64,000 nucleotides of DNA, taken from the NCBI GenBank assembly GCA_900318835.1, contig ONLW01000010.1, positions 1 through 64,000 of the forward strand, in the 5' to 3' direction. The notes under the pieces are model-generated. The model saw nothing but the letters and a program-made list of their open reading frames with translations, did not search any database and had not been told where the DNA came from. Shown piece after piece: positions 3,255 to 60,743 of this stretch; position 1 is the stretch's first letter; each line of letters opens with the position of its first letter. Origin of the DNA: an uncultured Bacteroidales bacterium. Lineage in GTDB: Bacteria > Bacteroidota > Bacteroidia > Bacteroidales > P3. The translations under genes and the position numbers were made by a program.

Positions 3255-3366
3255 CTGATACTAAGCACCAACACCGTATCAACACCGTCCCAACACCGTA
3301 TCAACTCCCTACCAAGTCCTACCATGGTAGGAGATGATAGGGTGATGGTAGGTCGATGGTAGGTGT
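3255..3366. repeat. 11-bp-phased palindromic repeat, copy 1
   Basis: The palindrome is centred on CCATGG at 3322-3327. The left arm consists of units such as ATCAACACCGT and CCCAACACCGT; the right arm consists of units such as GATGGTAGGTC. Each unit is 11 bp. The left border CTGATACTAAGCACCA is shared with copy 2, which is inverted. It lies between the convergent ends of the barrel gene and cls. Confidence 0.85.
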
Positions 3367-3372
3367 TTTGGG

Positions 3373-4800
3373 CTAAAGAATGGGGGTGAAAATCCTTGCG
3401 GTAGACTGGACGAATTTCTGCAGGCGGGGACGGTGCTGCCACTTGTCGGGGTCGACGAGGGTGCATTCCTTCAGGTCGTCGAGAAAGATGTCGCGCTGGC
3501 GGCGGGCGATGTCCTCGTCGTAGATGAAGGCGTTGACCTCGAAGTTCTGCTCCAGGCTGCGGGGGTCGAGGTTAGTGGAGCCGATGGTGACGAAGTCGTC
3601 GTCGCAGACCATGGTCTTCGAGTGGAGGAATCCCTTGGTATACAGATAGATTTTGACACCGGCGGGCAGCAGGTCGCGGAAGTAGGACTTGGAGGCCGCC
3701 AAGGTGATGCGGCTGCGGTCGGCAACGGCGGGCAACATTAGCCTCACGTCGACTCCCGCCAAAGCTGCATTTCTGATTGCCAGTAGGATAGGGTGCGTCG
3801 GGAGGAAATAGGGAGTCTGTATGTAAAGGTAGCGGCGGCTCTGGGCGATGGCCTGCACCATGCCCTGCATGACGGTGTTCCACTCGTCCATGGGGCCCGA
3901 AGTGACTATCTGGGCAAATGCCTGATTGTTAGCTTGGACGGTGGTGTCGGCGGGCTCTATGGAAGGGAAGAATCGGGGGTCGTCGAGCAATTGTTTGGTG
4001 CAGAAGCGCCAGTCGGCGAGGATGGAGACCTCGAGTTGGCTCACGGCAGGTCCATGGAGACGGATATGGGTGTCGCGCCAGGCGCCGTGGTTGATACCGT
4101 CGCGGTAGCGGCGGGCGATGTTCATGCCGCCGGTGTAGCCTGTGTGGCCGTCGATGACCACTATTTTCCTGTGGGTGCGGCAATTGACGTCGCGTGTGAA
4201 CATCGAGGGTAGGAGTTTCTGGAACGACTGCACCTTGACGCCGCCGCGGCGCATGTGGTCGTAGTACTCGCTGCGGACGAAGAGGTTGGCCCAACTGTCG
4301 AACATCAGTCTTACGTCGACGCCCTCCTGGGCTTTGCGGATGAGCAGGCTGCTCAGCTGATGCCCTACTTCGTCGTTTTCAACAATATAGAACTGTATGT
4401 GTACGAAGCTCTTAGCGCGTGCGATGTCGTCGAGCATCGACTGGAACATGGGAGTGAAGTCGGTGAAGATACGCACCTCGTTGCCGCCGAGGACAGGGGT
4501 GTCATTGGCGTGGCGCATCATGGAGGCCAGCTTGTTGTATTTGTCGTTGGGAAGAGAGGCTATAATGTTGTTGCCCACGGCCTTATTGCGTAAGGTGTCG
4601 AATCGGGCCAACTCATTGGACTTGATGACGCGGCTGCTGCGGTAGTCTTTGCCCAAAAGCAGGTAAAAGATGGTTCCTACACCGGGAAGAAGGACGATGA
4701 AAATAATCCAGAACATTGATATATATGGTTTCCTGTTTTCAGATATCACCAATATCAATGAGCCAATGATGATGAGGCCGAGGATTATTTCGTAAATCAT
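3373..4800 (-). CDS. cls: Cardiolipin synthase (phospholipase D superfamily)
   Basis: The 475-residue protein begins with two membrane segments (about residues 2-20 and 28-50, PLDc_N type), followed by two PLD domains. The first HKD motif is HRKIVVIDGHTGYTGGMN, starting at His210; the second is HSKTMVCDDDFVTIGSTN, starting at His393. Both have the Lys, Asp and Gly/Ser-Asn residues needed for phosphatidyl transfer. It condenses two phosphatidylglycerols into cardiolipin at the inner membrane. It is the last gene of the minus-strand cluster that begins at rdgB, four bases after a small unknown gene. The length and motifs are standard for bacterial Cls. Confidence 0.95.
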   Translation of the reverse strand: MIYEIILGLIIIGSLILVISENRKPYISMFWIIFIVLLPGVGTIFYLLLGKDYRSSRVIKSNELARFDTLRNKAVGNNIIASLPNDKYNKLASMMRHANDTPVLGGNEVRIFTDFTPMFQSMLDDIARAKSFVHIQFYIVENDEVGHQLSSLLIRKAQEGVDVRLMFDSWANLFVRSEYYDHMRRGGVKVQSFQKLLPSMFTRDVNCRTHRKIVVIDGHTGYTGGMNIARRYRDGINHGAWRDTHIRLHGPAVSQLEVSILADWRFCTKQLLDDPRFFPSIEPADTTVQANNQAFAQIVTSGPMDEWNTVMQGMVQAIAQSRRYLYIQTPYFLPTHPILLAIRNAALAGVDVRLMLPAVADRSRITLAASKSYFRDLLPAGVKIYLYTKGFLHSKTMVCDDDFVTIGSTNLDPRSLEQNFEVNAFIYDEDIARRQRDIFLDDLKECTLVDPDKWQHRPRLQKFVQSTARIFTPIL

Positions 4801-4804
4801 AATG

Positions 4805-5014
4805 CTATTGTTTTTTCATTTGAGCACGTAGGTCGGCGGCGCGGGCGGTGAGCTGTGCTATCTGCATCTGCAGGAAGTCGTCGCTGTACTTGCGGTCGCA
4901 GAATCCGTTGCCTCGGGCCACGAAGGAATCGTCATCTTCCTGGTCGACGGAGAGGTCTTGGTAGCTGTCAAGCAGTCGGAGAGTGTCTTTAAGCTGTTCT
5001 TCAAGTGTCTTCAT
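4805..5014 (-). CDS. Small acidic/charged protein of unknown function
   Basis: This 69-residue protein is rich in Asp, Gln and Leu. The C-terminal half (FLQMQIAQLTARAADLRAQMKKQ) should form an amphipathic helix or short coiled coil. Its ATG overlaps the stop of the upstream HAD phosphatase gene (ATGA), which implies translational coupling. The cls gene starts 4 bases after its stop, so it sits in the middle of an operon and is very likely real. It has no signal peptide or membrane segment, so it should be cytoplasmic. I do not recognise the family. Confidence 0.75.
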   Translation of the reverse strand: MKTLEEQLKDTLRLLDSYQDLSVDQEDDDSFVARGNGFCDRKYSDDFLQMQIAQLTARAADLRAQMKKQ

Positions 5015-5775
5015 AATAATATCTCATTAACAGCGTTTTCAATACCTTCATTGTCTACATCGGTGGTTAGGCGGTCGGCATGTTGTTTTACCTTTTCGTC
5101 GGCATTGCCCATGGCCACACCGATGCCTGCCCACTCAAGCATCTCGATGTCGTTGGCGCCGTCGCCGAAGGCAAGTGTCTCCTCCTGACGGATGCCGAAG
5201 TGCTGGCAGATGGCTTCCATTCCATGTGCTTTGCTGTTGTTATGAGCCACGATGTCAGTGAAGTATGGGTGCCAACGTGGCAGCCGACAGTGGGGTAGGC
5301 TTGCTGCTACCGTGCTGTCCATCTCGCCAGGCATAATGGCGATAATTTGATAAGCGGTCTCGCTGCGCATGCGGTCGATCTCCACCACCGGTGGCATCTC
5401 GAATTCCAGTTGGTTGCGCAGTCTCAATCCCACCTCATTGGGCTGTGCAAGGAACATGTTGTTCTCTGTAAATATCATGGTACAGAGATTTTTATCCTTC
5501 GCAATATCAAGCCATGCTTGAAGCTCTTTATCGGGGATTGGATTGCTCAGTAATACCTTGTTGGGTGTGAACACCAACCCTCCGTTCATGGTTATTTTGG
5601 CCTCGAAAGTGACGGGCATCTTGGGGATGAGCACGTCGGGTCGGCCCGTGGAGAGGAAGGTCCGTATGCCGACTTTGTGCAGGCGGTCGAAAGCACGGAT
5701 AGTACCTGCCGAAACACGGTGTGTGGTGAAACTTAGCAGGGTGCCGTCTATGTCGAAAAATGCAGCTTTTATCAT
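5011..5775 (-). CDS. Cof-type HAD-superfamily phosphatase
   Basis: The 254-residue protein has all HAD motifs: DIDGTLL near residue 8 (nucleophile and acid/base Asp), STGRP near residue 42, a Lys in NNSKAHG, and FGDGANDIEMLEWAGIGVAMGNA for metal binding. The cap arrangement and length fit subfamily IIB (Cof), which acts on sugar phosphates, flavin mononucleotide and related small phosphate esters. The substrate cannot be told from sequence. Its start overlaps the transporter gene upstream by 4 bases and its stop overlaps the small gene downstream, so it is firmly within the operon. Confidence 0.92.
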   Translation of the reverse strand: MIKAAFFDIDGTLLSFTTHRVSAGTIRAFDRLHKVGIRTFLSTGRPDVLIPKMPVTFEAKITMNGGLVFTPNKVLLSNPIPDKELQAWLDIAKDKNLCTMIFTENNMFLAQPNEVGLRLRNQLEFEMPPVVEIDRMRSETAYQIIAIMPGEMDSTVAASLPHCRLPRWHPYFTDIVAHNNSKAHGMEAICQHFGIRQEETLAFGDGANDIEMLEWAGIGVAMGNADEKVKQHADRLTTDVDNEGIENAVNEILL

Positions 5776-6662
5776 TTCTTTTTAATTTGTGCTAATTGCC
5801 ATGCGTTCCACACATTCTGGAAAATGCTGTAGAAGGCTAGGAATACCGATGAAAGTGGGGTGAGGAAGGTGTTGGCCATCCAGATGCCCATGGCTGAGTT
5901 CTTCTGTCCGAGGAGCTGACCTCCGCTGATAACGTCGCCATATCTCTTGCCCAGCCAGCGGCCAAATCCAAACTGTATGATGCAGAAAACCAGTGATAAG
6001 ACGCCGAGCCAGAGGATGCTGCCCCAGTTGCCTTCGCCGTTAAGGAATATGTAGTCGATGGTTTGTCCGAGGGTGAAGAGCAGGGCTAGTGACCAGAGAT
6101 AGAAGCCTAGGCCTTTGTATTGTGCAATGAAATTGTTGACCCTCGGCAGCATGAACTGCATGAGTACGGCCAGGAAGAATGGCAGGGCGAGGGTGGAACC
6201 AATCTTGCTGAACATCAGTAGTAAACCGTCTACGAGGCCACGCTCTGGATGGTCTCCGATGAAACTGAATATCACCGGTGCCACTACGGCTACCATCAGG
6301 TTGCCCACGATGGTGTAGGTGGTCACAGTCTCACGGTTGGCGCCAAGCATGCAGGCTACTACCGCTACCGACGATGCCACTGGACATAAAATGCCTATCA
6401 GAACACCCTCGGCTACGATGTGGCTGCCGCCGAAGAGTGTGATTGCCATATAGCACGAGGTGCTTACCACTACCTGAAAGAGTATCAACCAAAGGTCGAT
6501 TATAGTCATGCGCAGGCGGCGTAGGTCGACGGCGGTGAAGGTAAGTAGCAGGATGCAGAAGATGATGAAGGGGACGAGGAATGAGAACATGGCGCACCAG
6601 CGGTGAAGCAGGAGGCCTAGAATGATGGCGACGGGGAGGACGTATGGTCGAAAACGTTGCAT
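5772..6662 (-). CDS. Bile acid:sodium symporter-like (BASS) membrane transporter
   Basis: The 296-residue protein is almost entirely hydrophobic, with about nine or ten predicted membrane helices. The pattern GNLMVAVVAPVIFS in the middle and SGGQLLGQKNSAMGIWMANTFL near the C-terminus resemble the crossover helices of the SBF/BASS fold. The substrate is unknown; bacterial members move organic anions with sodium. It overlaps the HAD gene by 4 bases and abuts punA, so it may transport a nucleoside-related or other anionic metabolite, but that is inference. Confidence 0.75.
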   Translation of the reverse strand: MQRFRPYVLPVAIILGLLLHRWCAMFSFLVPFIIFCILLLTFTAVDLRRLRMTIIDLWLILFQVVVSTSCYMAITLFGGSHIVAEGVLIGILCPVASSVAVVACMLGANRETVTTYTIVGNLMVAVVAPVIFSFIGDHPERGLVDGLLLMFSKIGSTLALPFFLAVLMQFMLPRVNNFIAQYKGLGFYLWSLALLFTLGQTIDYIFLNGEGNWGSILWLGVLSLVFCIIQFGFGRWLGKRYGDVISGGQLLGQKNSAMGIWMANTFLTPLSSVFLAFYSIFQNVWNAWQLAQIKKK

Positions 6663-7480
6663 TAGAGGCGTCTGACTATGTTGGTAAAGAGGACGGTCAT
6701 GCGGTCGGCTGCACGGTCGGCGGCACGGATGACGTCATTGCCGTCGTTTACTACGCCGTTACCCAAGTCATTGGCTTGGTTTGTGATGACGCTCATGCCA
6801 AAGACTTCCATGCCGCTATGGCGTGCCACGATGACCTCGGGCACGGTGGACATGCCGCAGGCGTCGGCACCCCAGGCGTTGTACATGCGATACTCGGCGG
6901 GTGTTTCGTAGGTTGGACCGGTGCCGGCTACGTAGACACCTTCGCGGAGGCTGAGGCCCAGATGTTTGGCCTCTTCATGGGCGATAGTGCGGATGCGGCG
7001 ACTATAGACTTCGGTCATGTCGGGGAATCGGGGGCCGAAGTCTTCCTTGTTGGGTCCCACTAAAGGGTTGGGCATGAAGTTGATATGATCGGTAATGACC
7101 ATTAGGTCGCCCACGTGGAAGTCGGGGTTGACGGCTCCGGAAGCGTTGCTCACCAGTACCTGGCGGATACCCATCCGAGCGAAGACGCGCATGGGGTAGG
7201 TGACCTCCTCCATGGTGTAACCTTCGTAGTAGTGGAAACGCCCCTGCATGGCCATAACTGTCTTGTTTCCAAGAGTTCCAATGATAAGATTGCCCTTGTG
7301 GCCGATGGCAGTGGAGGTTTTGAAATGGGGGATGTCGCAGTAGGGAATAATCAGCGGATTCTCAATCTTTTCGCCCAACTTGCCGAGGCCGCTGCCCAGC
7401 ACGATGGCGATGGCGGGCAACGGGCGGTCGCTGTGAGTGATTGTGTCGTTCAGATATTGTGCAGTCTCGTCGTATTTCAT
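6662..7480 (-). CDS. punA: Purine nucleoside phosphorylase (trimeric type)
   Basis: The 272-residue protein matches the trimeric PNP family. The phosphate loop GSGLG is near residue 29. QGRFHYYEGY, SNASGAVNPDF, GTGPTYETPAEYRM and GMSTVPEVIVARHSGMEV follow in order, with the substrate-base loop VITNQAND. It cleaves (deoxy)guanosine and inosine with phosphate, for purine salvage in the cytoplasm. The gene starts 4 bases inside the bifunctional-nuclease-like gene and stops at the first base of the transporter gene. Together with rdgB, the cluster has a nucleotide-handling theme. Confidence 0.96.
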   Translation of the reverse strand: MKYDETAQYLNDTITHSDRPLPAIAIVLGSGLGKLGEKIENPLIIPYCDIPHFKTSTAIGHKGNLIIGTLGNKTVMAMQGRFHYYEGYTMEEVTYPMRVFARMGIRQVLVSNASGAVNPDFHVGDLMVITDHINFMPNPLVGPNKEDFGPRFPDMTEVYSRRIRTIAHEEAKHLGLSLREGVYVAGTGPTYETPAEYRMYNAWGADACGMSTVPEVIVARHSGMEVFGMSVITNQANDLGNGVVNDGNDVIRAADRAADRMTVLFTNIVRRL

Positions 7481-8028
7481 TGGATTCCTTTTATTTGTTC
7501 AATTCTTTTCTGTAGCTCGGCTGCTTTCTCATACTCCTCGCGTTCCTCGCAAAGGCGGAGCTCCTCTTCCAGCCGGGCAATCTCGTGCTTTGGGTCATCG
7601 CTGTCGGAAAAGAGCGAGGCTGTACTCTCCATCTTGACGCCCGTCTCCTCCAGCACATCGTCGGCCACCATGATGGGACAGCCGCAATGGAGCGCCAGGG
7701 TGATGGCGTCGGAGGTGCGGCTGTCGAACTTCTTGTCGTTGAATCCATCGGTAGTGTGGAGGGTGGCATAGAAGATTCCTTCCATTACATGGTCAATAGT
7801 GACTTCTTTGATACTCAAACCGTAATCATGCATTACATGAGCCATCAGTTCATGTGTCATTGGACGGCGAGTGGGCACCGATTCTTTGGCCAAAAGGATG
7901 CCTTCGGCCTCATGGGCGCCGATGAAAATGGGTATCTGGAGGCCGCTGACGGGCTCGCAGAGCATCAGGATGTAACTGCCACTCTGCGACATGCCGCTTT
8001 GGATGGTGAGAGGGAAGACTTGTTTCAT
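7477..8028 (-). CDS. Bifunctional nuclease-like (DUF151) protein with UVR motif
   Basis: The 183-residue protein has a BFN/DUF151 domain at residues 1-130: IPIFIGAHEAEGI, MTHELMAHVMHDYG and RTSDAITLALHCGCPI. It ends with a helical UvrB/UvrC-type motif (EEREEYEKAAELQKRIEQIK, about 160-179) that typically mediates protein contacts. This combination is widespread in Bacteroidetes; the biochemical role is uncertain, with nuclease activity reported for plant relatives. It overlaps punA by 4 bases and follows rdgB at 33 bases. Confidence 0.88.
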   Translation of the reverse strand: MKQVFPLTIQSGMSQSGSYILMLCEPVSGLQIPIFIGAHEAEGILLAKESVPTRRPMTHELMAHVMHDYGLSIKEVTIDHVMEGIFYATLHTTDGFNDKKFDSRTSDAITLALHCGCPIMVADDVLEETGVKMESTASLFSDSDDPKHEIARLEEELRLCEEREEYEKAAELQKRIEQIKGIQ

Positions 8029-8061
8029 GTTTAAGGAGTTGTGAGACAGGGGGATGTGGAG

Positions 8062-8873: not shown

Positions 8874-8980
8874 TTCATCGACCTACCACCGGCCTATCAT
8901 CTCCTACCATGGTAGGACTTGGTTGGGAGATGGTACGGTGTTGGGTCGGTGTTGGTAGGGAGATGGTGCTTAGTATCAGG
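8874..8980. repeat. 11-bp-phased palindromic repeat, copy 2 (inverted relative to copy 1)
   Basis: The palindrome is centred on CCATGG at 8907-8912. Its reverse complement aligns without gaps to copy 1 over about 105 bases with roughly 11 differences, including the border CTGATACTAAGCACCA (here at 8965-8980, reversed). It lies between the 3' end of the porin gene and the 5' end of rdgB. The rest of the 8644-9142 gap holds the inverted repeat at 8748 and otherwise nothing recognisable. Confidence 0.85.
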
Positions 8981-15234: not shown

Positions 15235-15267
15235 TAAAATTTTCAACACCTATCAAATAGCTGATAA

Positions 15268-15351
15268 CCACCTACGAACGCCTTACCAACTCCTAACCAA
15301 CTCCTACCATGGTAGGAGTTGGTAGGGTGATGATAGGATGTTGGTAGGGTG
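15268..15351. repeat. 11-bp-phased palindromic repeat, copy 3
   Basis: The centre is CCATGG at 15307-15312. Left units are CCTTACCAACT and CCTAACCAACT; right units are AGTTGGTAGGG, TGATGATAGGA and TGTTGGTAGGG. It lies between the divergent promoters of the DUF3127 gene and corA. With those promoters it accounts for the whole 15133-15480 gap. Confidence 0.88.
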
Positions 15352-15390
15352 AAAAAAGTTGGCATGTGGATAGGGAAGGGATAAAAAAAT

Positions 15391-28450: not shown

Positions 28451-28535
28451 CTTCTCCTTACCAACTCCTACCCAAAAACCTACCAACTCCTACCATCGTA
28501 GGTGATGATAGGGGTTTCGTGGGGTGTTGATAACT
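28451..28535. repeat. 11-bp-phased palindromic repeat, copy 4 (degenerate)
   Basis: The centre is CCATCG, so it is imperfect. Left units are CCTTACCAACT, CCTACCCAAAA and ACCTACCAACT; right units include GTAGGTGATGA and TGGGGTGTTGA. It lies between the 5' end of the TlpA-like gene and the 3' end of the next barrel gene. The remainder of 28260-28450 holds nothing I recognise. Confidence 0.7.
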
Positions 28536-28543
28536 CAAAAAAA

Positions 28544-38400: not shown

Positions 38401-38487
38401 CAACTACCTGTCAATGACCTACCAAGGCCTTACCAACTCCTACCATGGTAGGAGTTGGTAGGGAGTTGATAGGGCGATGGTAGGGTT
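38401..38487. repeat. 11-bp-phased palindromic repeat, copy 5
   Basis: The centre is CCATGG at 38443-38448. Left units are ATGACCTACCA and AGGCCTTACCA; right units are TGGTAGGGAGT, TGATAGGGCGA and TGGTAGGGTTT. It lies between the divergent promoters of the BspA-like gene and dnaX. With those promoters it explains most of the 38208-38608 gap. Confidence 0.88.
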
Positions 38488-38514
38488 TTACTCGGAAGAA
38501 AAGCTCTACTTAAT

Positions 38515-44335: not shown

Positions 44336-47002
44336 TTATTCTTCCGATTTTTTCAGGATATCTTCGACGATGGAGGCTTTCCAGGGGGTGCTCAGGTCGA
44401 AAATTTCCTCAACAGGGCGGCTGAGCATCTCGATGAAAAGATGTGTGTTGTCCTGATGATCCATCTTCTCCAACTCCTCCGCCACACGCCCCCAGTCGTG
44501 TTGCGAGTAGAGTAGGGGAACGAAGTTATTCATGTCAAAATTCTTCACTACCATATTGTCAATTCCCTCCGTCTCGATGCGCGAATGCGCACGGGCCAAC
44601 TTCATCTCCCCAACCTCCTGTAGCACTTGCTGGTACTTTTCATAAAGCACATACTCGTTCATAAGAAAAGCCACCATTGTGTCCGAAACACTGTTCCAAA
44701 CCCTCCGCGGTAAAGGTCGCGCCACAAATCGCCCAATCATGAAACTCCCAGCTGTCAGTCCCGAAATATCCTCTTTTCGGCACCGTTTGTATAGTTGTCG
44801 GAACAACTCTACCTTATTACCAGATGTCAACAGGTCGAAAAGACGCCCTTGGTCGTTATGGTCTCCCATACGGCTCTGTAGCACACCCTCCACATACTCC
44901 TCCGGATGCTGCTCAAACCACGTGTTCACTATGGCGGCTGCCTTCTTTGGCTGGTTCTGCAGGTTGCACCGGATTAGACGTGCTAGTTTGCTGATATCTG
45001 TAATATACGCCACCTCGTTCGAGGTAACAATCTGCTGATAGCGTTCGTATGCATTCTTCATCCGGTTGAAAAAAAGCCTCTCCTCCTCATTCAGATCCAC
45101 TTTCCCCCCCTCAAGATACTTCGTGAAACGTGCGGGCTTGAAAGCAGCCTGTCCTTTGTAGATGCTCTGGCGTTTCGAGCTCACCGTCACCATTTCCCCC
45201 TCGCTAATCCTTAGCCCCACTGCGTTTACAATGCTGTTGCCCTCCATCCGGATGCCATACGTCTGCAAGTCCATGAAAGCCGGAATCCCGTATCCACGGC
45301 ACGCCGTCACCACATGTATTGCTGCTGGCATCATTGAGAGAATCGCATCCAGTTCGTTCAGCGTCACCGTATCCTGTGGCACGAAATGACTCTGGCAGAG
45401 ACACACATGCTCCCCCTTGCTCTTATATTCGTGTGCTTTCCCCACAGAAAAACAGAGCCGCGCCGAAATTGCCGTTCGTGGAAGCACGCTCAACCCCTGC
45501 CCGAAAAACTCAAGTTCCGAGATTGTTCCGTCATCAATCGAGGCCGACACTATTTGCCGTAGGTGATAGGGTTTGATCAGGTCTAAAACATAATGGTCCG
45601 CAATTAGCCCCTCATTCAGCATATCAATGGCTGACACAAGCGCCGCACGCCCAGTCATCTCCGATGCGTTCAACTGCAGCACCGAAAACATACTCAATTG
45701 ATGGGGACGGCTCTCTACCGCAAACTCTATCGTCACGGGACATTTGTAGCGGCTCTCTAGCTTCTTCAGCAAAGGGTCGAAATGGTACACCGCAGGAAAC
45801 TGTTGGCGAATCTCATTGCGATCCCTGTACGCACGGTCCTCTGTTGTCACATCACCCGTCATGATCTCTTCCCCAAAAATATTCCGGTAACTCTCAATCT
45901 GTTTTCCCTCCCCAGTCCGCGAATGACGGCTGTAGAGCACTCCGGGATAACTCTCGTCGTTTCCAATCGTCCACACCATCCGCTGCAATATCAGGCTCGG
46001 ATATGCCTCTTTCCCCTGCATGAACGTCAGAATCAAATTGGGATTGTTCAAATAGAACTGGCGGACAAACTGTGTTAGCCGCAATGCCTGGTACCACGCG
46101 TCCGTAATCAGCCTCTCTTCTCCCGCTGCAACGATTTTACCCTCCAACTCAGCAATACGCGTCTTCTGGTCGCTGACGGAAAGTTTGATGTCGGTCGTGG
46201 GATACTCGTGGTCTAGGTTCAGCATCTCGCAGAGGGTGTGGAGCGTGCTCAGGTAAACACGGTTCGCCATCGTTGGCTCAAAGCTCTCTTTCAGCGCCCG
46301 GTAGGCCACCCGGGTCACCCCGATATTCAGCAGTGTGGGCATTAGGCCGGGGATATACTGCGGCATGGCACAGCGAATTGCGAAAACCAACGGATTGCGC
46401 ACATCCCCCAGCCGACAGTTCGTCATAATTTCCAAGTTCTGGATGGCCCTCCGTAGCAACTCCGGAAGCCCTTCGGGATGGTTGAACGATTTGGCTGTCA
46501 GGATCACGAAATCCGGCACTGGGTAACAGTTTTTCGTCAGGTCCAGCAGCATATGCCCCTTATAGCTAATCGCCTCGTCCGTAAAATCGGAGTCCGTCGT
46601 CAGCGTCGTGATTAGCTCATCAGACTCGAACAACGGGTTTTGTTCGACAAAATCGATGCATTGCCACCGGAAAGTGCTGCGGATATCCTCCAACATCTCT
46701 CCCTCCTCGATAGTCAGCAAACCCGCTCGCTCCGCAAGCAACATCTCCAGAAATCTCCTCTGCTCCCTCCCTCTCAGTTTCAACAACTGGTACATGTCGT
46801 ACCATCGGGGCGGGAACTCGCGGATAACATCCTCGCTATCACCCTCTAAACGATAGATCACAGTGCCAGGCTTGTTCCCCTCCAGCACGTTCGCGGGATC
46901 CTCACTGTCATGATTGAAAATCTCGCGCCCTTCACGCGCATAAAGCGTCACCATATAGAAATTAGGATAACTCGCCCTAATGCGGAACCGGCTGACCTTC
47001 AT
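44336..47002 (-). CDS. PPDK-like phosphotransferase (ATP-grasp plus His swivel domain), no PEP barrel
   Basis: The 888-residue protein has an N-terminal extension of about 140 residues. A region resembling the pyruvate phosphate dikinase ATP-binding domain follows: KGHMLLDLTKNCYPVPDF, NPLVFAIRCAMPQYIPGL (Arg conserved), VWTIGNDESYPGVLYSRH and CPVTIEFAVE. Then comes a swivel domain, with AAIHVVTACRGYGIPAFM aligning to the PPDK phospho-His motif TSHAAVVARGMGKP (His563). The last 240 residues are helical and do not look like the PEP/pyruvate barrel. The acceptor is unknown; rifampin phosphotransferase shows such swaps exist. It is 19 bases upstream of a TPR lipoprotein gene. Confidence 0.7.
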   Translation of the reverse strand: MKVSRFRIRASYPNFYMVTLYAREGREIFNHDSEDPANVLEGNKPGTVIYRLEGDSEDVIREFPPRWYDMYQLLKLRGREQRRFLEMLLAERAGLLTIEEGEMLEDIRSTFRWQCIDFVEQNPLFESDELITTLTTDSDFTDEAISYKGHMLLDLTKNCYPVPDFVILTAKSFNHPEGLPELLRRAIQNLEIMTNCRLGDVRNPLVFAIRCAMPQYIPGLMPTLLNIGVTRVAYRALKESFEPTMANRVYLSTLHTLCEMLNLDHEYPTTDIKLSVSDQKTRIAELEGKIVAAGEERLITDAWYQALRLTQFVRQFYLNNPNLILTFMQGKEAYPSLILQRMVWTIGNDESYPGVLYSRHSRTGEGKQIESYRNIFGEEIMTGDVTTEDRAYRDRNEIRQQFPAVYHFDPLLKKLESRYKCPVTIEFAVESRPHQLSMFSVLQLNASEMTGRAALVSAIDMLNEGLIADHYVLDLIKPYHLRQIVSASIDDGTISELEFFGQGLSVLPRTAISARLCFSVGKAHEYKSKGEHVCLCQSHFVPQDTVTLNELDAILSMMPAAIHVVTACRGYGIPAFMDLQTYGIRMEGNSIVNAVGLRISEGEMVTVSSKRQSIYKGQAAFKPARFTKYLEGGKVDLNEEERLFFNRMKNAYERYQQIVTSNEVAYITDISKLARLIRCNLQNQPKKAAAIVNTWFEQHPEEYVEGVLQSRMGDHNDQGRLFDLLTSGNKVELFRQLYKRCRKEDISGLTAGSFMIGRFVARPLPRRVWNSVSDTMVAFLMNEYVLYEKYQQVLQEVGEMKLARAHSRIETEGIDNMVVKNFDMNNFVPLLYSQHDWGRVAEELEKMDHQDNTHLFIEMLSRPVEEIFDLSTPWKASIVEDILKKSEE

Positions 47003-48643: not shown

Positions 48644-48717
48644 TGGCCCCTCTCGGGTTCGAACCAAGGACCCGCTGATTATGAGTCAGCTGCTCTAACC
48701 AACTGAGCTAAGAGGCC
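48644..48717 (-). tRNA. tRNA with CAU anticodon (probably elongator Met)
   Basis: The minus strand folds into a full 74-base cloverleaf: acceptor GGCCTCT/AGGGGCC, D-arm GCTCAGTTGGTTAGAGC, anticodon arm CTGACTCATAATCAG with anticodon CAU, and T-arm CTTGG-TTCGAAC-CCGAG. CCA is not encoded. CAU can belong to initiator Met, elongator Met or Ile2 (lysidine-modified). The base-paired first acceptor pair (G-C) excludes a typical initiator. Elongator Met is favoured, but Ile2 is not excluded. Confidence 0.95.
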
Positions 48718-49877: not shown

Positions 49878-49895
49878 TCCGCAGAGAAAATATGT

Positions 49896-49929
49896 AAAAA
49901 AAGCCGCTCGAGTGAGCGGCTTTTTTTTT
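49896..49929 (+). terminator. Terminator after ilvE
   Basis: The stem AAGCCGCTC / GAGCGGCTT with a GAGT loop, A-rich before and T9 after, is a classic Rho-independent terminator 18 bases from the stop. Confidence 0.93.
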
Positions 49930-49949
49930 GTTGCCTTTAACTAAAATTA

Positions 49950-50035
49950 ACAACCGTATTAACACCCTGACAACCACCTATCAACACCTACCGTGGTAGG
50001 AGTTGGTTAGGAGTTGGTAGGGTGTTGGTAAGTAC
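49950..50035. repeat. 11-bp-phased palindromic repeat, copy 6
   Basis: The centre is CCGTGG (49991-49996). The right arm has TAGGAGTTGGT twice in tandem, then AGGGTGTTGGT; the left units are ACACCCTGACA and ACCACCTATCA. It lies between the ilvE terminator and the promoter of the structured RNA. Confidence 0.82.
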
Positions 50036-50124
50036 ATTGTACGAAGCATGTGGTATCCGTTCCCCGAGACACTCCATCCGGGAGGGCTGAAAAACTTTTT
50101 TTTTTTCAGTCCAATATTTTTTCG

Positions 50125-54648: not shown

Positions 54649-57084
54649 ATGCTACTATCTGAATTACAAACAGGTGAACGCGGCGTTGTGGTCCGTGTCG
54701 CGGGTCACGGCGCTTTCCGCAAGCGTATCATTGAAATGGGATTTATCAACGGCGTCACCGTTGAGACCATCCTCAACGCACCGCTCAACGACCCCATCAA
54801 ATACCGCATTATGAACTTTGAGGTCTCCCTTCGGCGAAGCGATGCACGGAAGGTTGAGATTGTCAGCGAGCGTGAGGCTGAGAAGGAAATCCTCAACCAT
54901 GATGACTACAAACCCCTGGAAGCGCCCCATTGCGACGCTATGCACCATATCGCTGCCCACCGAAGCAAAACCATCAATGTGGCCCTTGTCGGCAATCCCA
55001 ACTGCGGCAAAACCAGCATCTTCAATATCGCCGCCCATGCCCATGAGCGTGTAGGCAACTACAGTGGTGTCACTGTTGATGAAAAAGTAGGTACTTTTTC
55101 CCATGGCGGCTACACCTTCAACCTTGTCGACCTCCCAGGCACCTACTCTCTCTCCGCCTATTCTCCCGAAGAACTTTATGTCCGTAAACATATTATTGAG
55201 AAAAATCCTGACATTATCCTCAATGTTGTTGACGGCTCCAACATTGAGCGCAACCTCTACCTCTCCACTCAGCTTATCGACATGGATATAACCATGGTGA
55301 TGGCTCTCAACATGTACGACGAGTTGCAACGCAGTGGAGACAAACTGGACATCGAACAGCTCAGCACCCTCTTGGGTATGCCCATCGTCCCCACCACCGG
55401 CCGCAATGGAGACGGCATCGACCGTCTGTTCGACAAAATTATAGAAGTCTTTGAAGGTCGTGACAACAAAACCCGCCACATCCATGTCAACCATGGCCGT
55501 GAATTGGAGCAATGCATCAGACAACTTCGTACCGAACTCTATGAACATGGATTCAGCGACTCTCTCTCCACCCGTTTCCTCAGCATCAAGCTCCTCGAAA
55601 ATGATCATCAGCTCGAGCAATATGCCACCCAGCGTGACCCCGACGGCAGTGTCCTCAAGATGCGCGACCAAATTGCCCGCGATTTCAAAAAAGATAGTGG
55701 CCGCCGACTGGTGGACAAGGATATCAGCAAGGGACATCAGGTGACAGTCGAAGATGAACAGCAAGACATCGAAAGCGCCATCACCGACGCCAAATATGCT
55801 TTCGTCCGCGGAGCCCTTGCCGAATGCTATCAAAAGAACGAAAAAAGCACCCTTCACGCACATACCGACAAGATTGATGCTATCGTCACTCACCGATGGT
55901 TGGGATACCCCGTGTTCCTCGTCGTGATGTTCATCACATTCTTCTGCACCTTCGCCATTGGACAATATCCTATGGACTGGCTGGAATCTCTCTTCGGCTG
56001 GATGGGCGAACTTGTGGGCGCCGCCATGAGCGAGGGACCCCTGAAAAGCCTTCTTGTCGACGGTATCATTGCCGGTGTCGGCTCCGTCCTGGTCTTCCTG
56101 CCCAACATATTAATATTGTACCTCTTCATTTCTTTTATGGAAGACAGCGGCTATATGGCACGCGCAGCCTTCATCATGGACAAGTTCATGCATCGAATCG
56201 GCCTCCACGGCAAAAGCTTTATCCCCATGATCATGGGCTTTGGATGCAATGTCCCTGCCATCATGGCCACCCGCACCATTGAAGACAGAAAAAGCCGTCT
56301 GCTCACCATGCTGGTCATCCCCATGATGAGCTGCTCCGCCCGAATACCCGTCTACGTCATCCTCGTCTCCGCCTTCTTCTCACAATGGGCCGCCTTCATC
56401 CTCACCGGCCTCTACCTTCTGGGAATGATTATGGCCGTCCTGATGGCCAAACTCTTCAGCCGTTTCTTCGTCAAAGGTGAAAGCCTCCCCTTCGTCATGG
56501 AACTGCCCCCTTACCGTATGCCCACCACCAAAGCCGTCCTTCGGCACACCTGGGAAAAAGGCAAGGAATACCTCAAAAAAATGGGTACCATCATCCTCGG
56601 CGCCAGCATCATCGTCTGGGCACTCAGCTATTTCCCCACACATGAAGACCGCATCCTTCAGGCAGAAAACAGCTATATGGCCAAAATCGGCAAAACCATC
56701 GAACCCGTCATGCGCCCATGTGGATTCGACTGGCGGCAGAGCGTCTCACTCCTGGCCGGCGCCGGTGCCAAAGAAGTCGTCGCTTCCACCATGGCCGTGC
56801 TCTATTCCACCACAACCGACGAAGCTACAACCTTGGAGCAAGACTTCGAAAGCAAGGAAAACGAAAACCGAATCAGTGAGCTCGTGCATAACAACATGTC
56901 GCCACTCAGCGCTATGTCCATGCTGCTCTTCATCCTGCTCTACATGCCCTGCATCTCCACCATCGTCGCCATCAAAAACGAAAGTGGCCGATGGAAATGG
57001 GCCCTCTTCACCCTCCTCTACACCATCGGTCTAGCCTGGCTCGTATCCTCCATCTTCTTCCAGACAGTAAGCCTCTTCATCTAA
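54649..57084 (+). CDS. feoB: FeoA-FeoB fusion, ferrous iron transporter
   Basis: I set the start at the ATG at 54649 (MLLSELQTGERGVVVRV), just below the promoter. The 811-residue protein has a FeoA SH3-like domain at 1-75 and a G domain with GNPNCGKT at 115-122 (the usual Ser is Cys) and DLPGTYSL. A helical spacer follows, then about ten membrane helices with the GFGCNVPA gate motif (about 528) and AGAGAKEVVASTMA. It imports Fe2+ across the inner membrane. FeoA-FeoB fusions are common in Bacteroidetes. Confidence 0.96.
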   Translation: MLLSELQTGERGVVVRVAGHGAFRKRIIEMGFINGVTVETILNAPLNDPIKYRIMNFEVSLRRSDARKVEIVSEREAEKEILNHDDYKPLEAPHCDAMHHIAAHRSKTINVALVGNPNCGKTSIFNIAAHAHERVGNYSGVTVDEKVGTFSHGGYTFNLVDLPGTYSLSAYSPEELYVRKHIIEKNPDIILNVVDGSNIERNLYLSTQLIDMDITMVMALNMYDELQRSGDKLDIEQLSTLLGMPIVPTTGRNGDGIDRLFDKIIEVFEGRDNKTRHIHVNHGRELEQCIRQLRTELYEHGFSDSLSTRFLSIKLLENDHQLEQYATQRDPDGSVLKMRDQIARDFKKDSGRRLVDKDISKGHQVTVEDEQQDIESAITDAKYAFVRGALAECYQKNEKSTLHAHTDKIDAIVTHRWLGYPVFLVVMFITFFCTFAIGQYPMDWLESLFGWMGELVGAAMSEGPLKSLLVDGIIAGVGSVLVFLPNILILYLFISFMEDSGYMARAAFIMDKFMHRIGLHGKSFIPMIMGFGCNVPAIMATRTIEDRKSRLLTMLVIPMMSCSARIPVYVILVSAFFSQWAAFILTGLYLLGMIMAVLMAKLFSRFFVKGESLPFVMELPPYRMPTTKAVLRHTWEKGKEYLKKMGTIILGASIIVWALSYFPTHEDRILQAENSYMAKIGKTIEPVMRPCGFDWRQSVSLLAGAGAKEVVASTMAVLYSTTTDEATTLEQDFESKENENRISELVHNNMSPLSAMSMLLFILLYMPCISTIVAIKNESGRWKWALFTLLYTIGLAWLVSSIFFQTVSLFI

Positions 57085-57090
57085 AAGACC

Positions 57091-57246
57091 ATGCAAAAAC
57101 TCATCGTCATCCTCATCGTAATTGCGGCACTTGCCCTCCTTGTCCGTCGTCTTTGGCATACGGTCAAAGGTGAGGATGGCTGCAACTGTGGCTCCCCCAA
57201 TTGCCCTTACCAGGGACAATGTGATCGAAGAAAACATAATGAATAA
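57091..57246 (+). CDS. FeoB-associated Cys-rich membrane protein
   Basis: This 51-residue protein starts 6 bases after the feoB stop: MQKLIVILIVIAALALLVRRL (one membrane helix), then CNCGSPNCPYQGQC with four cysteines, then DRRKHNE. This matches the small FeoB-associated Cys-rich membrane proteins (PF12669-like), proposed to act in place of FeoC, perhaps by sensing iron or redox state. Spacing and composition make it convincing despite its size. Confidence 0.88.
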   Translation: MQKLIVILIVIAALALLVRRLWHTVKGEDGCNCGSPNCPYQGQCDRRKHNE

Positions 57247-57250
57247 AACA

Positions 57251-57272
57251 AGGGCGCCCCTTGAGGCGCCCT
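57251..57272. terminator. Terminator hairpin between feo genes and the DUF6266 gene
   Basis: AGGGCGCC pairs with GGCGCCCT around a 6-base loop, 4 bases after the Cys-rich gene stop, between convergent genes. Confidence 0.75.
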
Positions 57273-57284
57273 CCCCCGTCACCA

Positions 57285-57917
57285 TCAGCCGATATTGCCA
57301 GAGCCGATGTAGGCACTGTCGCTCACCTCACCCAGGGTGAAACCCCACACATGCACCTTCATGCCGTTCCAGCAAGTCGGCACCGTCACGCTGATGCTCT
57401 TCACACTGCGTTTCACCGGCGTAGCCAGCACACCACTCTTCATATCGGGACAATAGACAAACACGTACACCTCGTCGTCGAGACTCGTCTTCTCGCACTC
57501 CTCGTTCGAATCGAATCCCACGGCCACCCTCTGCGGAGTGTCGAAACTCGGCGTGCCAAACTGTACACCCGTCAGCGCCCCTTGGGCCACCAGAAGGTCG
57601 GCGTAGTCCACCGTCACGCTGTCGACCGTGCTGGCCTGCACAGCCCCCCAGTTCTTCTTCACGAAAACATTGCCCTCTGTAGTGCGGCTTTTGGCGGCGG
57701 CATCGCGCAGGCCGATGCGGATGGCCGACAGAAAACTTGAGACCAGCCCATTGATCGTAGCGAAGCGGGCACGGATCAGCAGCTGGGGCGCTCCCTTGCG
57801 GTCATGGATGTGGCGGACATAAGCTCGCATCACAGGAATCCCCTTCCAGAACGACCCCACAACGGTGCCTACTTTACCAAAGAAACCATCCAGAATTCCA
57901 CGATTGATTGTTGCCAT
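57285..57917 (-). CDS. DUF6266-family protein
   Basis: The 210-residue protein begins MATINRGILDGFFGKVGTVVGSFWKGIPVMRAYVR, the hallmark start of the DUF6266 family found in Bacteroidetes. It has no signal peptide or membrane helix. The C-terminal half is beta-rich (VYVFVYCPDMKSG, KVHVWGFTLGE). The function is unknown; members often occur in several copies and near mobile or surface genes. A GTTT microsatellite precedes it. Confidence 0.8.
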   Translation of the reverse strand: MATINRGILDGFFGKVGTVVGSFWKGIPVMRAYVRHIHDRKGAPQLLIRARFATINGLVSSFLSAIRIGLRDAAAKSRTTEGNVFVKKNWGAVQASTVDSVTVDYADLLVAQGALTGVQFGTPSFDTPQRVAVGFDSNEECEKTSLDDEVYVFVYCPDMKSGVLATPVKRSVKSISVTVPTCWNGMKVHVWGFTLGEVSDSAYIGSGNIG

Positions 57918-57949
57918 AATTTTAAATGTGTTTTAAAGGTTAAAAAAAT

Positions 57950-57977
57950 GTTTGTTTGTTTGTTTGTTTTGTTTGTT
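57950..57977. repeat. GTTT microsatellite upstream of the DUF6266 gene
   Basis: Four perfect GTTT units are followed by GTTTT and GTTT. It lies 33-60 bases upstream of the DUF6266 ATG, in its leader or promoter, where changes in unit number could alter expression. The rest of 57918-58120 has no recognised feature. Confidence 0.85.
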
Positions 57978-58120
57978 CCTCACTTTATTTGATTAATTCA
58001 GCGGTGTCCGGTTCCCCTTCGGGATTGTTTTGTCGGTCGCGACGACAATGACAATATACGGTTTTTTGAAGGGACAGTTTTGAAAATGCCTTGATTGTCC
58101 CCGGTTGTCCATGTTTGACT

Positions 58121-58573
58121 TTATTTGTCCCCAGGACTCATTGCGGTGGCATCGAAACGATGGTTGTCCATGACGGCGTTGGCACGTAGCACTGTCTCGA
58201 TTTCTTCGCGCATGTAATAGATACGTTGACCTATTTGTGAAGGATGGAAGTATCCTCGCTGGGTCCAACGGCGTAGGGTCTTCTGGGAGATGCGCAGCAG
58301 GCGGCACACCTCGTTCACCTCGAGCCATTCCACCGCCGAGGAGGGTTCCGGCTTCTCCACACTAAGAACCTTGCCTTCTCGTGTGGAAGGATACTCGCTG
58401 CGCATGAGTTTCTCAAGCTTTTCTCGACTCAGCGTGCCTCCCTTGCGCACACTGATGCTGAAGTTGTTCACGCGCCCGTCGGGCGTGGTATAAAACACAT
58501 AGACAAGCGTAGGCTCAGCCTCGTAGTCCAGTTCCAACACGTGCAGGATTTCCTGCAATGCTTCTTTTGTCAT
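58121..58573 (-). CDS. Helix-turn-helix DNA-binding protein (excisionase/MerR-like HTH_17)
   Basis: The 150-residue protein has an N-terminal alpha/beta domain of about 75 residues (LVYVFYTTPDGRVNNFSISVRKGG). The C-terminal HTH is EWLEVNEVCRLLRISQKTLRRWTQRGYFHPSQIGQRIYY (about 84-125), typical of HTH_17 excisionase-like proteins. It may regulate the divergent gene at 58777, with which it shares the intergenic region. Confidence 0.82.
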   Translation of the reverse strand: MTKEALQEILHVLELDYEAEPTLVYVFYTTPDGRVNNFSISVRKGGTLSREKLEKLMRSEYPSTREGKVLSVEKPEPSSAVEWLEVNEVCRLLRISQKTLRRWTQRGYFHPSQIGQRIYYMREEIETVLRANAVMDNHRFDATAMSPGDK

Positions 58574-58600
58574 AATCTTAATTATTAATGGTTACGAAGG

Positions 58601-58630
58601 CAAAAATAGTGCTTTCGCCATGGATCCAAA
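58601..58630 (-). promoter_or_regulatory. Promoter of the HTH gene
   Basis: Minus-strand TTTG (58630-58627), an 18-base spacer and TATTTTTG (58608-58601) lie 28 bases above the ATG. Confidence 0.7.
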
Positions 58631-58702
58631 GGTGGGCAAGGTTGTGGTGTTAGAGTGGTGATGCGAATGGTGTTATTCGGGTGTTATTATTATGATATTT
58701 TA

Positions 58703-58734
58703 ATTGCATTATTGTGAAATAATATTTACCTTTG
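58703..58734 (+). promoter_or_regulatory. Promoter of the 246-residue unknown gene
   Basis: ATTG (58703-58706), a 20-base spacer and TACCTTTG (58727-58734) fit the consensus. The box overlaps an alternative TTG start at 58732, which supports the ATG at 58777 as the real start. Confidence 0.72.
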
Positions 58735-58776
58735 CACTTTGAAGATTCGTTCCCGAAGAGATGTGCTTTTGTTGTT

Positions 58777-59517
58777 ATGTACTTGATTGACTGGTTGAAG
58801 CGGGATTATGACATCGAACTTGATGCCTCTTGTTTCCAGGACGGCGCTGCCCTGGCGACGGAACTGTGCCGTGCCCTCGTCGACACCGGTCGGGACTATG
58901 CCGAACAACGCCACATTCTCCTCCAGAGCACCGACCGTCACCCTGACCTTGCTTTCGGTACTGTCTGTCTCGACCAGATTGACCGCATTGACGCCTTCCG
59001 TCGTCGTCGGGCAGGTATCGACGACAAACCTGTGCGAAAATGTCATTCGGGTGTATCCAAAAACAAGCAGTGGAATGCCGGAGCCGACTATGCCGACATG
59101 CGTTTTGTGGCAGCTCGCGAGGTCAATGGGGACAGCGCCGCTGCCGTTGAGGAAATGATACGGCGGATGGTTGCCGAGGGCTGCATCGAGGCCCGTGACG
59201 ACGTGGTGCGCGACCTCAGGCAGGGGTTGGGCTTCATCCTCCCCGGCGAGGATCCCGTCCGCCGACGCCGCACAGTGCGGTGGCTCCGCGGACTGAATGC
59301 CCTTCATTTCTGGGTCGAGGCAATGCTCAATGGACGGGAACCGCTCATCCGACCTGCCGGCGGTGCACAGGGGTGCTGGAAGACCGCCGCCAGCCTCTTT
59401 GTCGACAAGGACGGTCGTGCCCTCACCAACCAACGCCTCGAGCACGGCATCCTCCGCAACGAGGAACAACGCCGCTGGCTCCTCAACGTCATCCCACGGA
59501 CTCCTCGCGCACAATAA
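58777..59517 (+). CDS. Unknown cytoplasmic protein, divergent from the HTH gene
   Basis: The 246-residue protein (MYLIDWLKRDYDIELDASCF) is charged, helical and rich in Arg, Ala and Asp, with no signal or membrane segment. A conserved-looking stretch is RTVRWLRGLNALHFWVEAMLNG near residue 165. I do not recognise a family. Divergence from an HTH regulator and proximity to a DUF6266 gene suggest a small accessory cluster. Confidence 0.68.
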   Translation: MYLIDWLKRDYDIELDASCFQDGAALATELCRALVDTGRDYAEQRHILLQSTDRHPDLAFGTVCLDQIDRIDAFRRRRAGIDDKPVRKCHSGVSKNKQWNAGADYADMRFVAAREVNGDSAAAVEEMIRRMVAEGCIEARDDVVRDLRQGLGFILPGEDPVRRRRTVRWLRGLNALHFWVEAMLNGREPLIRPAGGAQGCWKTAASLFVDKDGRALTNQRLEHGILRNEEQRRWLLNVIPRTPRAQ

Positions 59518-59573
59518 ATAATGTATAATAACGTTAATAACAATATACCGTAATTACGAAAAAGAATAGAACC

Positions 59574-60596
59574 ATGGAAACAATTACCCTCGGACGCAGT
59601 GGCCTTGTGGTGCCGCGCAACGGCTTCGGAGCCCTCCCCATCCAGCGTATCAGCGAGGCCGATGCCGTGCGTCTTGTGCGTCGTGCCCTTGATGGCGGCA
59701 TGTACTATTTCGACACCGCCCGCTTCTATACCGACAGTGAGGAAAAGCTTGGCGTGGCCCTCGAAGGTCGCCGTAAGGAGGTTATTATCAGCACCAAGAC
59801 CGGCGCCACCACTGCCGACGGCTTCTGGAAAGACCTCGAGACCAGCCTCCGTCTTCTCAAGACCGACTATGTGGACCTTTACCAATTCCACAATCCGGCC
59901 TTCTGCCCGAAACCCGGTGATGAAAGCGGCCTTTACGAAGCAATGGAAGAGGCTATGCGTCAAGGGAAAGTGCTGCATGTCGGCATCACAAACCACCGTC
60001 AGTCTGTAGCTGTGGAGGCTATCGGGAGTGGCTTGTATGAGACTCTTCAGTACCCCTTCTCCTACCTGGCTACGGAGGCCGACCTCGACATCGTGGAGCG
60101 CACGCGCAAGGCCGACATGGGCTTCATCGCAATGAAGGGCCTCAGCGGAGGTCTCATCACCCACAGCGCCATCGCTTATGCCTTCCTGGCGCAGTATCCC
60201 CACGTGGCCCCCATCTGGGGTATCCAGCGCGAGAGCGAACTCGATGAATGGCTCTCCTATCAGGACAATCCGCCGCGACTCACGCCTGAGATGCAGGAGA
60301 TTATTGAGAAAGATCGCCGTGAACTCAGCGGCGACTTCTGCCGTGGCTGCGGCTACTGCCAACCTTGTCCTGCCGGCATCCAGATTCAGGACTGCAACCG
60401 CATGTCGCTCTTCCTTCGCCGCGCGCCACACAGCGTCTACCTCACCGAGGAGTGGCTCCACGAGATGGAAAAAATTGACGGCTGCATCCATTGTCGCCAG
60501 TGCGTCAAGCGCTGTCCCTACAGCCTGGACACCCCCAACCTCCTGGTGCGGAACAAGGAAGACTTCATGGACTTCTGGAAAAAGAAAAACAAATGA
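59574..60596 (+). CDS. Aldo/keto reductase with C-terminal 4Fe-4S ferredoxin domain
   Basis: The 340-residue protein has a TIM-barrel AKR domain (1-240) with DTARFYTDSEEKLG (catalytic Asp and Tyr), the Lys in IISTKTG, and YQFHNP. A Cys-rich tail follows, with CRGCGYCQPCP near residue 259 and CIHCRQCVKRCPY near residue 304, able to hold one or two [4Fe-4S] clusters. Such proteins are common in anaerobes as putative oxidoreductases; the substrate is unknown. Confidence 0.9.
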   Translation: METITLGRSGLVVPRNGFGALPIQRISEADAVRLVRRALDGGMYYFDTARFYTDSEEKLGVALEGRRKEVIISTKTGATTADGFWKDLETSLRLLKTDYVDLYQFHNPAFCPKPGDESGLYEAMEEAMRQGKVLHVGITNHRQSVAVEAIGSGLYETLQYPFSYLATEADLDIVERTRKADMGFIAMKGLSGGLITHSAIAYAFLAQYPHVAPIWGIQRESELDEWLSYQDNPPRLTPEMQEIIEKDRRELSGDFCRGCGYCQPCPAGIQIQDCNRMSLFLRRAPHSVYLTEEWLHEMEKIDGCIHCRQCVKRCPYSLDTPNLLVRNKEDFMDFWKKKNK

Positions 60597-60605
60597 CTTC
60601 CCATG

Positions 60606-60627
60606 GAGACGCTGCAGGCTGCGTCTC
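60606..60627. repeat. Short GAGACGC hairpin repeat
   Basis: GAGACGC and GCGTCTC flank an 8-base loop. The same word family occurs inside dnaX (39806-39881). It lies just after the aldo/keto reductase gene and may act as its terminator. Confidence 0.6.
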
Positions 60628-60677
60628 TACGGAGGGGGCGATGATGATAGAAGTAATGTTAATAAGAATGTCCTATG

Positions 60678-60743
60678 AACCCCCTACCAACTCCTACCAT
60701 GGTAGGAGTTGGTAGGGGGTTGGTAGGTAGATGGTAGGTAGAT
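60678..60743. repeat. 11-bp-phased palindromic repeat, copy 7
   Basis: The centre is CCATGG at 60697-60702. The right units are TGGTAGGGGGT and TGGTAGGTAGA (twice). It ends 2 bases before the trmO start and contains an in-frame ATG (60731). Confidence 0.88.

Follow-up and report, generated by a model that had tools for sequence, protein, structure and literature searches.

Evenly spaced palindromic arrays of phased 11-bp units in a genus of uncultured Bacteroidales bacteria

Introduction

The closest described counterparts of the elements reported here, palindromic arrays of phased 11-bp units of which seven lie in a 64,000-nucleotide stretch of an uncultured Bacteroidales genome (contig ONLW01000010.1 of assembly GCA_900318835.1, positions 1 to 64,000; hereafter the window), are plasmid partition sites, miniature mobile elements, repetitive extragenic palindromes and strong DNA gyrase sites. 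The iterons of ParR-parC systems are also 11-bp phased units and are bound cooperatively, but parC consists of plasmid-borne direct repeats beside the par genes, whereas the arrays have inverted arms and occupy many chromosomal sites. Miniature inverted-repeat transposable elements (MITEs) are likewise short and dispersed, with some copies near-identical; the arrays differ from them in their tandem phased units, in the conservation of old copies and in an exclusion that operates across unrelated families. Repetitive extragenic palindromic (REP) sequences and bacterial interspersed mosaic elements (BIMEs) are accompanied in the genome by a Y1 transposase (RAYT) that is flanked by the repeat. 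They share with the arrays a repeated, intergenic and palindromic nature, are described in PMC3733652 as palindromes of 20–40 bp with a GTAG or CGTC tag, and include the BIME-2 repeats, a reported gyrase target according to PMC6379681. The arrays differ from them in their length of 75–121 bp, their phased 11-bp units with interchangeable letters, their even spacing and the lack of a detectable REP transposase in one array-rich relative (G028). The Escherichia coli gyrase motif is given in the same source, with which PMC12393610 agrees, as symmetric, 130 bp long and periodic at 10.75 bp in its wings. This motif and the strong gyrase site of phage Mu (dyad-symmetric, ~130 bp, with wings phased at 10.75 bp; PMC6379681) come close to the arrays in spacing and symmetry, whereas the arrays have explicit sequence units, a constraint that peaks at the dyad and ~190 evenly spaced copies (extrapolated). 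The 11-bp helical period also recurs in the 'structural code' of genomes, which is a diffuse nucleotide bias (PMC4132750), whereas the arrays are discrete palindromic elements. The REP passages of PMC12306157 do not mention tandem 11-bp units, and a literature search, mostly confined to papers outside subscription and judged by titles and abstract openings, returned no description of such arrays.

Here we show that arrays of similar layout and spacing are written in different letters from one species to the next, and sometimes inside a single genome, which suggests that they segment the chromosome.

Results and discussion

Array structure and phasing

The seven palindromes of the window, first pointed out in an earlier note on this DNA, are real and far above chance. 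All were found at the positions reported there, with the centre CCATGG in five, CCATCG at 28451 and CCGTGG at 49950 (Table 1); all seven are intergenic and lie 5.6–13.2 kb apart, in line with the 6–13 kb given earlier. The description of 11-bp units, typically three per arm, was right as to phasing but needs amendment in two respects: the innermost step, out from the dyad, measures 10 bp, and arms of the window arrays contain three to six units by chain score. The arrays are 75–108 bp long in the window and 75–121 bp overall.

In the source genome (G000), of whose 2.34 Mb 464 kb were analysed and which, like all genomes of the genus used, is a draft in contigs, 37 arrays were counted, corresponding to ~190 genome-wide by extrapolation. 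Across 105 elements, the layout consists of a dyad, a first outward step of 10 bp and thereafter 11-bp units of the form TGRTAGGGNGT, and information per column is strongest at the dyad and declines outward to ~60 bp. A unit matrix was trained exclusively on elements of named public genomes (n = 85). Unit matches in the 464 kb of G000 that lay no more than 80 bp apart were almost always separated by 10, 11, 21, 22, 32, 33 or 43–44 bp, seven further values being represented by one pair apiece. A chain-of-units score above 18 bits was reached by 70 arms in the 464 kb, compared with none in one single-base shuffle, and the pattern CCTACCATGGTAGG (at most one mismatch) matched 113 times in the genome versus once for the reversed pattern. 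Scanned with a profile in this way, the 464 kb display 11-bp phasing beyond chance.

A sequence-blind scan, in which repeats are scored by lag without reference to unit letters and lag 11 is compared with neighbouring lags, yielded lag-11 arrays in samples of three species of the genus: 30 in G000 (464 kb), 41 in G012 (399 kb) and 40 in G028 (400 kb). Lags 8–10 and 12–14 gave 0–9 each in these genomes, with the exception of lag 14 in G012 (12). The lag-11 arrays were intergenic in 30 of 30, 40 of 41 and 40 of 40 cases, respectively, so that 110 of 111 arrays from the three species lie outside genes.

Spacing and gene context

The 37 elements of G000 have a mean spacing of 11.6 kb and a coefficient of variation (CV) of 0.46, compared with 0.93 under random choice among gaps of at least 100 bp, and none of 5,000 draws was equally even; one spacing, due to a weak single arm, is below 5 kb versus 11 expected. 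The sequence-blind arrays, with neighbours within 600 bp merged, behave in the same manner: the mean is 14.7 kb and the CV 0.49 versus 0.89 in G000 (n = 30; no spacing below 5 kb versus 7.1 expected), 10.4 kb and 0.36 versus 0.85 in G028 (n = 40; one, of 4987 bp, versus 12.6), and 10.4 kb and 0.46 versus 0.85 in G012 (n = 38; five versus 12.5). Even spacing persists when gene context is held fixed (p < 1/4000, 0.0005 and < 1/4000 in G000, G012 and G028, respectively). The exclusion also acts between families with unrelated units: in 400 kb of G028, where two families were assigned via simple text patterns, none of the 20 copies of family B lies within 5 kb of the 20 copies of family A (6.1 expected).

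Gene context was derived from our own gene caller, by which some genes were missed or trimmed. Of 110 elements classified (86 public loci, 15 own loci and the window), 41 lie in co-directional, 34 in divergent and 21 in convergent gaps, 12 at a locus end and 2 inside a called gene. Among gaps of at least 150 bp in G000, G012 and G028, an array is present in 48 of 85 divergent, 13 of 29 convergent and 43 of 173 co-directional gaps, so that direction switches are favoured (61 of 114 versus 43 of 173; Fisher p = 1.5e-6; p = 0.001, 0.03 and 0.004 in G000, G012 and G028, respectively). This comparison covers 104 gaps with an array, of the 110 intergenic arrays, and an array lengthens its gap in every class. 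Genes beside conserved arrays, named by eye, look like ordinary housekeeping genes.

Unit sequences and register

The unit letters are species-specific, and some species have several unrelated unit families. The unit is GTTGGTAAGGC in G012, GTTGAGTAGGA in G028, GTTGATCAGGC in G080 and GTTGATACGGA in G090, the last being present upstream of dnaX in G009 and G069 as well; unrelated types are GTTCTTCAGTA in G022, GTTCTTATGTA in G090, GTAATACTACC in G012 and GTTCTTCGATT in G028. G012 contains near-perfect palindromes of 121 bp composed of eleven 11-bp blocks (e.g. L189:15272 and L190:10412), and a two-unit pattern (at most two mismatches) matches 91 times per strand, i.e. in a few dozen near-identical elements. 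Near-identical dispersed core copies were found for the families G012-b and G028-B only, and not for that of the window. In G028, the near-identical GTTCTTCGATT cores are enclosed by outer units of GTTGAYAYGG type, as in the other family, and these are specific to each locus. At the in-step offset, TTGAYA (at most one mismatch) was found in 28 of 40 G028-B flanks (exact in 18), whereas none of the 40 matched at any of eight other offsets. Because these outer units are in step around the G028-B cores, the two families of G028 seem to be interchangeable occupants of a single type of slot.

Compared by eye, unrelated unit families have their dyad-to-unit register in common. In both G000 and G028-A, GC content aligned on the dyad dips at 9–10, 20–21, 31–32 and 42–43 bp; the outward sequence at these dips is GTTG, and AT steps lie ~10, 21, 32 and 43 bp out from the centre. 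GAAC occupies the same place, 8–11 and 19–22, in the unrelated c and e cores of G012 and lies one base later in G028-B; the AT runs of G012-b are at 7–11, 18–22 and 29–33; and a mixed G012 group (n = 11), with dips at 21, 32 and 43, partly resembles the main family.

An outer tail resembling CAGGCAGTTA was found within 160 bp of the array centre in 3 of 12 cases in G000 versus ~0.25 expected by area, but in 1 of 21 in G012 and 1 of 16 in G028, close to chance, and a shared outer tail was therefore rejected as a general rule. The G028 flanks have different common words, e.g. TGATTTA in 12 of 80 (1.3 expected). Related tails, resembling CTGATAC..TATCAG, end some arrays (the 3300 and 8970 regions of the window, L022 and L126). 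At three loci of G073 and G080 (L129, L141 and L146), array-like units are one-sided, without an inverted arm, beside AT-rich DNA, and may represent a one-armed form.

Conservation of the arrays

For 145 elements, orthology was established by matching both flanks between genomes, giving 34 pairs, and 41 one-flank pairs were left out. A strict set was made of 15 clusters with one pair each, restricted to columns 21–42, which lie outside the search pattern; each arm was cut off at the first unit that no longer aligned, i.e. with fewer than 6 of 11 positions matching. In this set, 12 of 191 conserved, 39 of 216 middle and 44 of 187 free columns have changed (p = 2e-6, conserved versus free) at a flank divergence of 16.5%, and conserved columns changed less in 12 clusters, equally in one and more in two. 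With all pairs but one duplicate and columns 10–42, the corresponding values are 22 of 751, 65 of 668 and 94 of 418. The lower change at consensus columns could also be caused by gene conversion among copies. In several clusters, the number of 11-bp units varies among arrays at one place. In one G000 array, an arm duplicates the opposite arm in mirror image, which is not the case for its orthologue.

In 90 non-redundant main-family elements, the similarity of mirrored units does not exceed that of units taken from different elements (z = 0.6, −1.0, −0.9, −2.6 and 0.2), whereas adjacent units within one arm are more alike (z = 4.2–7.2), which argues that the arms are series of sites and not a stem.

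Distribution

The exact centre was found in 6 of 61 genomes (the source and 60 relatives), all six of one genus. Public matches, among those listed, are uncultured Bacteroidales or Bacteroidetes assemblies including RUG156, RUG11699, RUG11969 and UBA2939, RUG presumably standing for 'rumen uncultured genome', and several array-bearing assemblies among the matches listed have roe deer rumen titles; the array-bearing species are uncultured bacteria, many of them from the rumen. A model built from sequence only, with 50 of 62 non-redundant elements (R1), matches in at least 65 of 119 genomes of the genus. The sequence-blind scan gave three lag-11 arrays in 282 kb of G021, a genome lacking an R1 match (10 at lag 8 and 7 at lag 7), and none in 247 kb from 20 genomes of other families of the order or in 150 kb of E. 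coli K-12, both small samples.

In 27 dnaX loci (L151–L177), the same scan gave 12 lag-11 arrays, while most other lags gave 0–2. The counts of 16 and 9 at lags 7 and 14 reflect a different, 7-bp repeat.

Possible role of the arrays

From the anatomy, phasing, even spacing, family exclusion, gene context and column conservation, we infer that the arrays are bound by protein, with a single system reading every family, and have a role in segmentation. A putative binder, a protein or complex, would dock at the palindromic centre and extend or wrap outward in both directions, keeping to one face of the DNA and touching a unit at each helical turn. The ~190 sites (extrapolated), about one per 10–14 kb, lie between transcription units and more often at direction switches, and would divide the chromosome into similar segments, possibly topological or nucleoid domains, insulating transcription units or supercoil domains. 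That the arrays are such dyad-centred nucleoprotein sites, splitting the chromosome into segments of ~10 kb, is the reading we favour, with close to an even chance of being correct. The earlier note had suggested that a nucleoid or transcription-domain protein might bind the arrays; this proposal gains from the phasing, the lack of arm covariation, the column conservation, the even spacing and the preference for direction-switch gaps.

A bolder statement, on which we are more doubtful, is that the genus divides its chromosome with ~200 evenly spaced, dyad-symmetric and helically phased arrays whose recognition depends on register and symmetry and not on a fixed sequence, core and unit letters being freely exchanged within and between species and the dyad-to-unit register and ~10-kb spacing being retained; the arrays would then be a register-defined domain element, for which no described counterpart was found. 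A length of ~10 kb has long been discussed for bacterial supercoil domains, and we know of no defined boundaries for such domains in most species. If the favoured reading is true, the arrays would provide a map of ~10-kb chromosome segments that is visible in the sequence. It would also be an element whose geometry is retained as its letters change and which therefore escapes ordinary motif searches; others would be found by a lag-11 scan.

Several observations weigh against the favoured reading. The register was compared by eye and the GTTG/GAAC match read post hoc, without a significance figure; in the AT-rich cores (G028-B and G012-e), other columns are equally GC-poor; and the 11-bp Fourier phase of GC content is spread over 3.4–6.4 (of 11) in seven groups and is 7.5 in a group of two. 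G012 shows five spacings below 5 kb. The near-identical cores of G012 and G028 look like recent spread, and changes matched in both arms, found in 4 of 11 G012-b copies inspected by eye, are not needed for binding alone. Array positions are shared by closely related species, with turnover elsewhere. The density varies within the genus (R1 matches in at least 65 of 119 genomes; three arrays in G021, no more than at some of its other lags), so the system is not needed everywhere. No binding protein was found. A static-curvature wedge model indicated no clear bend: medians for arrays were 1.045–1.070 (p = 0.52, 0.11 and 0.09 against other intergenic DNA; 0.72, 0.046 and 0.73 against shuffles), and static curvature was rejected as the signal.

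Alternative explanations

Mobile elements and gyrase sites are the main rivals. According to the first, which we consider unlikely, the arrays are MITE-like palindromes whose transposase avoids targets less than ~5 kb from an existing copy, with host selection purging genic copies. Some core families of G012 and G028 may have a MITE-like history, as suggested in the earlier note for the window's palindromes, because they consist of near-identical dispersed copies; this near-identity does not extend to the window's own family. A 5-kb hard-core model with a mean of 10.4 kb gives a CV of 0.50 (95% range 0.36–0.70), which covers the values of G000 (0.46–0.49) and just covers that of G028 (0.36). 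However, exclusion also operates between families with unrelated letters, five spacings of G012 are below 5 kb, old copies are conserved column by column and every G028 array is intergenic. The centre pattern had no match in viral contigs, and one array copy each as BLAST query had none in plasmids or phages. Array-less sites in G110 are too diverged for a target duplication to be read. In a search limited to the transposase classes rve (PF00665) and Y1_Tnp, PF00665 was not found in G012, G028 and G002 (92–98% complete) and was present once in G000, once in G009 and three times in G021. Transposon immunity of the rve type (Mu, Tn7 or IS21) was rejected on the zero counts in G012 and G028, which have recent copies. 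Mobility explains the near-identical cores, but not the cross-family exclusion or the old conserved copies.

The REP family suggested in the earlier note was not supported. By form, window arrays of 75–108 bp and dialects such as GTTGATCAGGC and GTTGATACGGA without GTAG do not conform, and the REP/RAYT relationship was rejected on the Y1 loci: the Y1 transposase domain was not found in array-rich G028, and the two Y1 loci of G000 have no array within 1.5 kb, only lone unit matches of 8.1–8.4 bits in one of them. G012 has three Y1_Tnp loci, one of them with an 11-bp array ~1 kb away (L228), as density alone allows; it belongs to another family.

The second main rival takes the arrays for strong DNA gyrase sites, in which ~130 bp are wrapped symmetrically round the cleavage point with phased wings and any in-register unit sequence works. 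We regard this as distinctly improbable. The published motif is symmetric with periodic wings, and gyrase sites are reported in BIME-2 repeats (both PMC6379681). The AT steps at ±10, 21, 32 and 43 bp span 86 bp, or 10.75 bp per turn if the centre represents two turns, and the unit letters are interchangeable. Relative to a strong gyrase site, spacing and symmetry fit and the phase is not comparable, but the constraint profile differs: array constraint peaks at the dyad and falls outward, whereas gyrase periodicity lies in the wings beyond 16–19 bp. Moreover, gyrase is universal but dense arrays were found in one genus only (small samples), and the base-specific dialects and column conservation exceed the needs of indirect readout.

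Bidirectional Rho-dependent terminators, in which inward strands are C-rich and G-poor with a YC step every 11 nt, are very improbable. The inward strand of the window's family does consist of CCCTACCAACN repeats, and the intergenic placement would fit. Rho utilisation favours C and avoids G in the free RNA positions; in the arrays, free column 18 on the C-rich strand has C at 0.11 and G at 0.16, so that C is not favoured, and a utilisation site was rejected on this composition. Arrays are also most frequent in divergent gaps, and several core families are not C-rich.

Hairpins working as RNA or cruciform, for which the near-perfect palindromes of G012 and G028 and the both-arm changes in G012 speak, are the least credible of these explanations and were rejected as a function, because the arms of the CCTACCATGGTAGG family lack mirror covariation (z = +0.6 to −2.6 per unit) and so are not a selected hairpin, and Rfam at gathering thresholds matched just RNase P RNA and tRNA in the window. 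A two-tetrad G-quadruplex was also rejected, since the second G of the first pair of the unit is A in 26–36% and hence not required.

Features of the window

Some window genes were named by Pfam, and the arrays are listed with the two Rfam matches in Table 1.

Table 1. Arrays and RNA genes located in the window
Feature	Position	Strand	Dyad or centre	Units, left arm	Units, right arm	Context or basis
Array 1	3260..3367	.	3324/3325	6	4	Convergent gap
Array 2	8878..8974	.	8909/8910	3	6	Co-directional gap
Array 3	15245..15352	.	15309/15310	6 (outer weak)	4	Divergent gap upstream of corA
Array 4	28453..28538	.	CCATCG	4	4 (weaker)	Co-directional gap
Array 5	38403..38488	.	38445/38446	4	4	Divergent gap upstream of dnaX
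Array 6	49951..50036	.	CCGTGG	4	4	
Array 7	60668..60742	.	60699/60700	3	4	Upstream of trmO-like gene
tRNA gene	48644-48717					Rfam match
RNase P RNA (class A)	62927-63336					Rfam match

Array 1 has a counterpart at the same place in RUG156 (L047) and G035, and array 3 in RUG156 (L079). The gaps corresponding to arrays 2 and 3 in G110 are short and lack an array. Array 5 lies upstream of dnaX, where several relatives carry other dialects. G009 and G002 have arrays at the place of array 6, and none was seen within the 170–235 bases inspected there in G110, G035 and G012. The orthologues of array 7 in G009 and RUG156 differ in the number of 11-bp units.

In 7 of the 27 dnaX matches (L155, L156, L158, L160, L165, L167 and L174), a single in-frame TAG occurs in the region searched, although it may simply lie past the genuine stop codon. 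Two unit-like matches (16.6 bits) at 45564–45584, inside the long open reading frame 44336–47002, are probably due to chance. Directly before array 6, a stem followed by a T run, resembling an intrinsic terminator, lies at ~49895–49930 and is also present in G009.

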